Part shown: positions 14,744 through 16,332 of the stretch, piece after piece
Numbering within the stretch: position 1 is the first letter of the stretch
Layout: each line of letters begins with the position of its first letter
Source of the DNA: Chitinophagaceae bacterium
GTDB lineage: Bacteria; Bacteroidota; Bacteroidia; Chitinophagales; UBA10324
Direction: 5' to 3'
Assembly (NCBI GenBank): GCA_947474435.1
Contig: CANJII010000038.1
Span: 1-33,514, forward strand
Length of the DNA: 33,514 bases
Translations under genes and position numbers: made by a program
Notes under the pieces: generated by a model
What the model was told of the DNA's origin: nothing
The model's database searches: none
The model's input: only the letters and a program-made list of their open reading frames with translations

Positions 14744-15478
14744 TCAGTATGGATAAACAGCTATCTTCTCTTTCAGCAAAAGATAAATTATGTGCGATTC
14801 AATCTGAAGTTGCAATGCTGTATCAGGAAGTTCAATGGAATATTCTTCCATTGTTTTCAGTTGATAAATGTGCGCCTGATTATTTTTTTTAAAGATGAGT
14901 TGATTGTTCTCCACCTGAAAATTCGTGATTCCTTTTGTTGGAATTTTATTCAGAAAATTTCCGAACTGATCAAAAACAAAAACTCCTAGTGATGAATCAG
15001 AAACAAACAGTTGTTGATTTTCTTCCTTCATTAAAAAAGGTTGAATGTGTTTATCGGAAATGGATTGCATGGTTGGGCTTTCATGCATCACCTCCAATTG
15101 TGAATTGATTTTTTTCAACCGCTCATCTGCTTCATCATACACCCAGAAATTTCCATCCTGCGATAAACATGCAACAGGTGATTGAATAATTCCGATAGGT
15201 GCAAGTTGGGTTTCAGCAATTTCAGAAAGTGTATTATCAAGCCATACAATGGTGCTGAAATCTTTGTAGTACAACATCATCTTCATTGGATTCGAAACAT
15301 CAAGACTCGTTAGTTGACCGAGCGACTTATTTGTATAAGTGTGTAACAGTTGACCGGAAGAATCATGCTTCACCACTTTGTAATCAGTGGTAACGGCATA
15401 AATATTCTGCAGGTTATCAGTAGTGAAAAACAGCGCACTCACTTTTATAATGAAGAACAAATGCCACAGCGGTTCCAT
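14744..15478 (-). CDS. Propeller-like protein of unknown function, coupled to lpxH
   Basis: 244 residues, with a hydrophobic N-terminus (WHLFFIIKVSALFF) that could be a signal peptide or anchor. The rest is made of repeated strand units such as NIYAVTTDYKVVKHDSSGQL, GNFWVYDEADERLKKIN and GVFVFDQFGNFLNKI, which look like NHL/six-bladed beta-propeller blades. No catalytic motif is visible. The start codon shares one base with the lpxH stop (TAATG), so it is probably translated by re-initiation. The role is unknown; the coupling suggests an envelope function. Confidence 0.65.
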   Translation of the reverse strand: MEPLWHLFFIIKVSALFFTTDNLQNIYAVTTDYKVVKHDSSGQLLHTYTNKSLGQLTSLDVSNPMKMMLYYKDFSTIVWLDNTLSEIAETQLAPIGIIQSPVACLSQDGNFWVYDEADERLKKINSQLEVMHESPTMQSISDKHIQPFLMKEENQQLFVSDSSLGVFVFDQFGNFLNKIPTKGITNFQVENNQLIFKKNNQAHIYQLKTMEEYSIELPDTALQLQIESHIIYLLLKEKIAVYPY

Positions 15479-16332
15479 TATTTTTTCACTGAAGGTTTTA
15501 TTATTACTGAATTATTCGTGATAGAATTTTTCGCGTCAGTTTCCCTCTCCTTAGGAGAGGGATTAAGGGTGAGGCTTCTTAACTCCAGTTTCTCTCCATC
15601 AAAAGTTGCGTAGCTGAAAAACCGCAGCCAGTCGCCGAGATTGATGTACCGGCTTTTTTCTTTGAGCGGATAATCCATTGCGAGGTGACGATGACCAAAA
15701 ATAAAAAAATCAATCTGTTCGTGTTTCAGCATTTCGCGCGCGTAACCAATCAGCCATTCTTTTTCTTCACCCAGAAAATCTTCTTTCACTTCACCATTCA
15801 GAAAGCGATTGTTGTAACTCCATTTTTTTCCGAGCCACACACCGAAATTCGGATGCACGCGCGCAAACAACCAGCGGAAAACACGCGCATGAAAAATTTT
15901 CTTAATCACTTTGTACTTATAATCGCCGGGACCCAATCCATCCCCATGACCAATCAGAAACTTTTTACCGCTACACTCAAATTGAATTTCTTTATTGAAG
16001 ATGGGAATATCCATTTCCTTGGTAAAATAATTTTTCATCCATTGATCGTGATTGCCCGGAAAAAAATAGATGGGAATATTTTTATCGCGCAACTCCGCCA
16101 GTTTCCCCAGCACGCGAACAAATCCTTTCGGCACCACCTGCTTGTATTCAAACCAGAAATCGAACAAGTCGCCGAGAATAAAAATGCACTGTGCGTCTTT
16201 CGAAATTTCGTCGAGCCACTGAACAAATAATTTCTCCCGCTGCAAACTTTTCTCGCGGGTTGGAACACCGAGATGCAGATCAGAAGCAAAATAAATTTTC
16301 TTTCCGCTATCAACGGAGGTGGGGAACTGCAT
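15478..16332 (-). CDS. lpxH: UDP-2,3-diacylglucosamine hydrolase with repeat-derived C-terminal tail
   Basis: Cleaves UDP-2,3-diacylglucosamine to lipid X in lipid A synthesis, at the inner face of the membrane. The calcineurin-like metal motifs are complete: SDLHLG (D18, H20), LGDLFDFWFEY (D55), PGNHD (N95, H96 region), GHGDG (128-132) and FGHRH (213-216). The length is 284, about 30 more than I expect for the family. The extra tail from about residue 252 (LRSLTLNPSPKERETDAKNS) is encoded by a 9-1-9 palindromic repeat (15543-15561), so a repeat element seems to have inserted and extended the frame. The start overlaps the LUD gene stop (TGATG); the stop overlaps the next start (TAATG). Confidence 0.93.
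   Translation of the reverse strand: MQFPTSVDSGKKIYFASDLHLGVPTREKSLQREKLFVQWLDEISKDAQCIFILGDLFDFWFEYKQVVPKGFVRVLGKLAELRDKNIPIYFFPGNHDQWMKNYFTKEMDIPIFNKEIQFECSGKKFLIGHGDGLGPGDYKYKVIKKIFHARVFRWLFARVHPNFGVWLGKKWSYNNRFLNGEVKEDFLGEEKEWLIGYAREMLKHEQIDFFIFGHRHLAMDYPLKEKSRYINLGDWLRFFSYATFDGEKLELRSLTLNPSPKERETDAKNSITNNSVIIKPSVKK
15541..15576. repeat. Palindromic repeat element inside the lpxH 3' end
   Basis: CCCTCTCCT (15543-15551) and AGGAGAGGG (15553-15561) form a perfect 9-base inverted repeat around one T, followed by ATTAAGGGTGAGGC. The wording matches a short dispersed element I recall from many Bacteroidota genomes. It is read in frame as the lpxH tail (LTLNPSPKERE). Confidence 0.65.

Follow-up and report, generated by a model that had tools for sequence, protein, structure and literature searches.

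The lpxH gene of the Chitinophagaceae bacterium studied here very probably owes its present 3′ end to the insertion of a mobile palindromic repeat, and the peptide tail that the insertion added to the protein seems to have been tolerated. We analyzed a stretch of 33,514 nucleotides, referred to as the window, together with the remainder of the genome, five congeners, and more distant genomes. The repeat belongs to a multi-copy family with nearly identical copies, the corresponding sites are empty in related genomes, and the reading frames carrying copies are intact.

In the window, lpxH overlaps the gene downstream of it, the TAA stop codon sharing one base with the ATG of the next gene (Table 1). 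The LpxH name rests on homology because the scores with the NCBIfam models PRK05340 (100 bits) and TIGR01854 (83 bits) are both below the curated cut-offs; the downstream gene gave no Pfam match at E ≤ 0.001. The first-pass annotation of the window had placed the last catalytic motif by residue 216 and the end of the usual LpxH block near residue 251. Both positions hold, as the metallophosphoesterase match stops at residue 216, with GHRH at residues 213–216, and the congener proteins match residues 1–252 and then differ. Its view that the frame had been kept open and the overlap with the next gene preserved agrees with the intact 284-residue frame and with the congeners described below. The same annotation read the start of the tail as a translated palindrome with its flank. 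This part corresponds to the 46-nt repeat copy; the remaining 53 nt of the tail are not repeat sequence. The palindrome itself is not a chance occurrence, with no match at up to three mismatches in 100 shuffles of the window, and GGGTGAGG is found at 15568–15575. The region 15478–15600 (reverse strand) has a predicted fold with a z-score of −2.6, and 3 of 200 shuffles reach the same stability. No Rfam match at gathering thresholds was found in the window, nor was a second copy of the element there, either by pattern searches or among the 20 of at least 60 direct and 25 of 159 inverted repeat families listed.

Table 1. Features at the 3′ end of lpxH, in positions of the 33,514-nucleotide window.
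Feature	Position	Strand	Evidence
LpxH-type UDP-2,3-diacylglucosamine diphosphatase, 284 residues with the extra tail	15478..16332	-	ORF; Metallophos domain at residues 12-216
LpxH residues 1-251, ancestral part common to the congeners	15580..16332	-	89-95% identity over residues 1-252 with five congeners
Lineage-specific LpxH tail, residues 252-284, replacing the congener ending KYYQK or KYYKK	15481..15579	-	DNA comparison with five congeners
46-nt repeat copy, SLTLNPSPKERETDA in the lpxH frame, about residues 253-268	15531..15576	-	46/46 identity to the copy in L141
Perfect palindrome CCCTCTCCT-T-AGGAGAGGG, 9-base arms, 1-base center, predicted hairpin	15543..15561	.	Pattern search and fold
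Rest of the tail outside the repeat, including the stop codon	15478..15530	-	No significant match
TAATG, lpxH stop overlapping the next start	15476..15480	-	Same TAATG in 5/5 congeners
Downstream overlapping gene, 244 residues	14744..15478	-	ORF; start region aligns in congeners

The lpxH genes of all five congeners encode a 256-residue product ending in KYYQK or KYYKK, have no element at the site, and are joined by TAATG to the same downstream gene. Because all five have TAATG there, the overlap is, on this comparison, one kept from the ancestor. The lpxH gene of the window diverges after about residue 251, crosses the element and a further 53 nt, and reaches the same TAATG. The insertion is not a clean one, since the last five codons of the congeners are replaced and a 53-nt stretch, itself unexplained, comes after the element. 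These 53 nt gave no significant match among the element loci of the genome and the rest of the window. Their local match to the congener lpxH ending has a score equalled by 51 of 2,000 shuffles, and they may contain a degraded remnant of the ancestral ending, a suggestive reading only.

The tail is found in one of the six genomes of the genus and is also absent from the other family members with a readable lpxH end. A contig scan gave 80 further LpxH loci (best identity 61%), none of them as close as the genus, so they were used as a distant control; these relatives of LpxH also point to Bacteroidota as the group of the genome. The tail peptide occurs in none of the 79 readable ones (L106 gave no usable frame), in agreement with the first-pass annotation, which had regarded the tail as a novelty. 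These 79 loci have 21–37 residues between the last GDW or GEW motif and the end of the protein, compared with 52 here.

The palindrome, likewise, is not unique in the genome. We built a covariance model (R1) from 16 copies of the same genome, whose alignment gives a consensus of approximately AAnAAGCCTCACCCCTAACCCCTCTCCnAAGGAGAGGGGAACnGnCGCGA. The model detects 48 copies in this genome at E ≤ 0.01, and the highest score belongs to the lpxH copy (15526–15580, 76.1 bits), itself one of the 16 used for building the model. The five congeners contain 32, 29, 33, 4, and 0 copies at the same threshold. The palindrome pattern with up to two mismatches matched the whole genome 17 times forward and 15 times in reverse, many palindromic places being counted on both strands, against zero matches for the reversed control. 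The lpxH repeat is identical in all 46 bases to the copy at G000:C5:116595–116649 (L141), a sign of recent spread. The family is patchy and not confined to the genus, because 30 of 149 genomes in an even sample of the order have a match at E ≤ 1e-4 under stricter filters, and 10 of these 30, including the genome studied here, belong to its own family.

Over 102 copies from four genomes, an A/T stretch prolongs the right end of the element, and on the left the bases just outside it are A-rich; the right end of the unit probably lies about 13 nt further out than we have drawn it. Each of the three typed forms of the element is free of stop codons in four of the six frames, so that an insertion of suitable length would often be translatable. 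Inverted pairs are found at C4:66782–66887, C3:144953–145091, and C25:35543–35634, and also in the arrays on C35 and C57; most of the listed copies have no partner nearby. These arrays consist of units of about 180 nt near contig ends (L199:2039–2518 on G000:C35 and L201:108–650 on G000:C57), in which a second palindrome sits inside the stem-loop of the element. Two copies of a MITE-like repeat, related to the element yet distinct from it and with longer inverted ends on its flanks, CCAATATAAA ... TATATTATTTTGG, occur at L005 and L014 (G000:C1:2030 and C1:131849).

We classified 43 copies of this genome by a codon-usage score trained on its own frames. They were drawn from 52 matches at E ≤ 0.1; the C35 and C57 arrays, with eight matches between them, count as two entries, and the three weakest of the others were dropped. 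Twenty-two copies are intergenic, nine internal, eight N-terminal, and four C-terminal. N-terminal overlaps (8 of 43 here, 10 of 59 in the congeners) were excluded from the insertion count because start codons may be misplaced, and internal copies were recognized by an intact frame, broken genes falling outside the count. Of the eight sites occupied by the nine internal copies, two are in LeuRS, the second of them taken up by an inverted pair; the others are in AspRS, PyrD, TsaE, SufD, a DnaE-type polymerase, and a hydratase-like protein. Copies inside genes, for which the first-pass annotation had proposed a search, are thus present at no fewer than these eight further in-frame sites. AspRS, LeuRS, PyrD, TsaE, and SufD have NCBIfam matches above the cut-off, the DNA polymerase III alpha-type fragment has one below it, and the hydratase-like protein was named from its sequence.

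At each of the eight internal sites, three or more congeners are without the element. None of the five congeners has the copies in AspRS, PyrD, the hydratase-like protein, or the first LeuRS site; those in TsaE and the second LeuRS site are common to G011 and absent from four. The SufD copy is common to G011 and the polymerase copy to G014; each is absent from three congeners, with G013 giving no match in either case. Relative to the congeners, the net gain of DNA is 45 nt in AspRS, 45 nt in TsaE, and 24 and 63 nt at the LeuRS sites. The alignment of AspRS with the solved enzyme 6wom has a single gap, which is 15 residues long and falls at the element. In PyrD, the polymerase, and SufD, the element seems to have replaced a variable loop; a plain insertion was rejected for SufD, whose form here is seven codons shorter at the site than in three congeners. 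The trees of the lpxH locus and of LeuRS conflict, and we therefore give no insertion dates.

Among the congeners G011, G012, and G014, we classified 59 of 94 copies (60 loci; 66 matches, seven secondary ones omitted), of which 42 are intergenic, seven internal, and 10 N-terminal. Three of the seven internal copies are at the sites already described in TsaE, SufD, and the polymerase. The best matches of the other four, all below the cut-off, are cysteinyl-tRNA synthetase, Mfd, DNA polymerase III alpha, and a sugar-epimerase-like protein. In other families of the order, 5 of 14 loci have the element in a frame that extends for 40 residues or more to either side, a count that has no chance control; two of them could be named by family, as HisC (above the cut-off) and a partial Mfd (below it). 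Peptides encoded by the element are found in several reading frames and in proteins that are unrelated. A recurrence of the element across genomes in DNA polymerase III alpha-type and Mfd-type proteins was observed at L147, L288, L325, L324, and L347, which fits the DNA-repair hosts described in the available text of PMC3733652. A second LeuRS on a small contig (L275, G014:C138) carries the palindrome-coded peptide SVSPSPRGQGEPW at approximately the first LeuRS site; the contig is possibly a contaminant, and the region of that site possibly an insertion hot spot. The 387-residue dehydrogenase at L154:1508–2668 (reverse strand) has an element tail, FSLTPTLSKREGVKK, and an element-like peptide, SSFPLGEGRDGARK, near its start.

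Filled and empty sites side by side in six close genomes (AspRS, LeuRS, TsaE, PyrD, and others) make the fate of newly gained coding sequence directly testable. They also caution that tails and loops of this type, where gene models show them, come from repeats and are not domains.

The element also appears to have a preferred placement at stop codons. Measured from the CCTCACCC end, 19 of 102 copies have a frame stop in the range from 44 nt inward to 10 nt outward, and no copy has one at the other end; orthologous copies are counted separately, and redrawing the right end by about 13 nt outward would admit two stops at the other end. At L150 and L209, the stop codon is supplied by the element. 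The lpxH copy is outside the 19, yet has the same orientation at the 3′ end of its gene, and looks like a stop-abutting placement that has fallen a few codons early. This bias, the predicted hairpin, and REPs reported near the 3′ ends of ORFs in other bacteria (PMC3733652, as far as its text was available) would fit an element kept for its role as RNA or DNA, in which a 3′-end hairpin stabilizes the mRNA or tunes the coupling to the next gene and the protein tail is a by-product. We regard this as possible but rather unlikely. None of the five congeners has the element at lpxH, so it is dispensable there, no terminator-like site was found in 15300–15800, the copies deep in AspRS, LeuRS, and PyrD have no 3′-end role, and the count of 19 was made without collapsing orthologues. 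A broader proposal, which we make only tentatively and consider unlikely, is that of a Bacteroidota mobile hairpin, lacking a GTAG or CGTC tag and a linked transposase, that would settle at stops in one orientation, create new C-terminal tails upon landing early, and repeatedly build new loops inside genes for core enzymes such as tRNA synthetases. If this is true, protein remodeling in the genus would be traceable site by site.

Could the tail itself have been selected, as a peptide altering the activity, stability, or membrane contact of LpxH? The intact frame and overlap and the excess of basic over acidic residues in the tail would suit such a role, which is nevertheless very improbable in view of the same-element peptides in unrelated proteins and several frames, the restriction of the tail to one of six genus genomes, and its low predicted confidence. 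The AlphaFold model of LpxH, obtained with a 40-sequence alignment, has a mean pLDDT of 79, with values below 50 for residues 177–183 and 257–284. It points to a disordered tail only weakly, because low values are to be expected where, as in the tail, the alignment offers no homologues. An assembly artefact, with repeat copies joining unrelated flanks, could be imagined for a draft genome in 98 contigs, since repeats can mis-join, but is still less probable given that both flanks match the congeners, with lpxH on the upstream side and the same overlapping gene on the downstream side, and that the frame is intact. An ancestral tail lost in the congeners, for which we found no supporting point, is refuted as far as sampled by its absence from the five congeners, the other readable family members, and the 79 readable distant loci.

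According to the insertion model that we prefer, a mobile non-coding palindromic repeat of about 46–56 nt, REP-like and in some places arranged as inverted pairs, would have landed close to the last five codons of lpxH in this lineage. The gene would have stayed open through the element, as it could because four of the six frames of the common element forms contain no stop codon, and would have ended at a stop still overlapping the next start. The 33-residue tail is most likely a floppy appendage, tolerated without a function of its own; it would be translated and neutral. The same events presumably recurred in core proteins of the genus, where in-frame copies in tolerant loops and ends would survive selection, and untranslatable insertions would be removed by it.

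We infer that the copies move by transposition, and that some enzyme, perhaps of the Y1 (HUH) type, moves them. Y1_Tnp genes number three in this genome and are present in 11 of the 16 family genomes. The flanks of all 36 Y1 matches over these 16 genomes were checked, up to 1.5 kb for 16 loci and up to 3 kb for the other 20. No element lies within 1 kb of a Y1 gene at any of the 36 loci, and the flanks of 35 are empty. The lone neighbor (L356:1606–1660) is located about 1.4 kb from the matched Y1 domain (L356:2760–3326, G015:C8), with another gene between them, in a genome that has four element copies. Since about 0.4 neighbors within 1.5 kb are expected by chance (a hand estimate from copy numbers, Y1 numbers, and genome sizes), we claim no link to Y1 genes. 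Linkage to a RAYT gained no support, one nearby copy for 36 Y1 loci being about the chance level and compatible with a link or with none. Copy number does not track the number of Y1 genes. Two genomes with five and seven copies have no Y1 match, but are 74% and 86% complete. The Y1 protein of G015 comprises 188 residues with the motif YIHNNP, resembling the subclass 2.6 pattern in the available part of PMC6006769, and is a tentative lead.

Translated palindromes are already in print, as the RPE of Rickettsia and as REPs inside genes in many phyla. For Rickettsia, a common explanation of the translated repeats is the weak selection that acts on intracellular bacteria. RPE, described as 105–146 bp long, have been reviewed for 19 Rickettsia reading frames (PMC2229807, in the part available). 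The accessible text of PMC3733652 describes REPs as short palindromes, single or paired, that are mainly intergenic and frequently close to the 3′ ends of ORFs but also occur inside coding sequences of several species, including those of tRNA synthetases and DnaE2, with some genes hit twice; CGTC repeats are found in Bacteroidetes, and RPE-4 and RPE-6 of R. conorii belong to CGTC families. The element described here resembles the Rickettsia RPE as a palindrome in frame in conserved proteins, DnaE being among the RPE hosts (PMC3733652; PMC2229807). As far as the published descriptions were available, it is set apart by its length of about 46–56 nt, the lack of a conserved CGTC, and a Bacteroidota-like genome. 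With the GTAG and CGTC REPs of PMC3733652, it shares short single or paired palindromes, a mainly intergenic location with some copies at ORF 3′ ends, and copies in tRNA synthetase and DnaE-type genes, one gene being hit twice, but it has no conserved GTAG or CGTC tag, and its center is 1–3 nt long compared with 4–5 nt in those REPs as described there. Among 43 copies of this genome, taken as the model match with 15 nt to either side, GTAG occurs in two forward and three reverse and GTGG in four and nine, and as a set these copies lack the stem-foot GTAG or GTGG that defines a GTAG-tagged REP. CGTC occurs in two forward and seven reverse of the 43, and CCTC is common (34 forward) but lies about 10 nt from the stem.

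The available part of PMC6006769 divides the Bacteroidetes TnpA proteins into classes, of which subclass 2.6 is mostly from Bacteroidetes and has atypical structures. REP/REPIN elements with TnpA-REP (RAYT) of Bacteroidetes subclasses 2.4 and 2.6, as described in that part, combine a hairpin with conserved flanks and some inverted pairs, as here; unlike them, the present element has no copy closer than 1 kb to any of the 36 Y1 loci, the nearest being the one at about 1.4 kb in G015. No paper on this particular repeat family was found in the literature searched, outside which most subscription papers fall. As a protein-coding palindromic element, the repeat is both multi-copy, with its 48 copies at E ≤ 0.01, and in frame where orthologues lack it, in LpxH and at eight other sites. 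To the published systems, our analysis adds the repeat family, its hosts, and its filled and empty sites among congeners.
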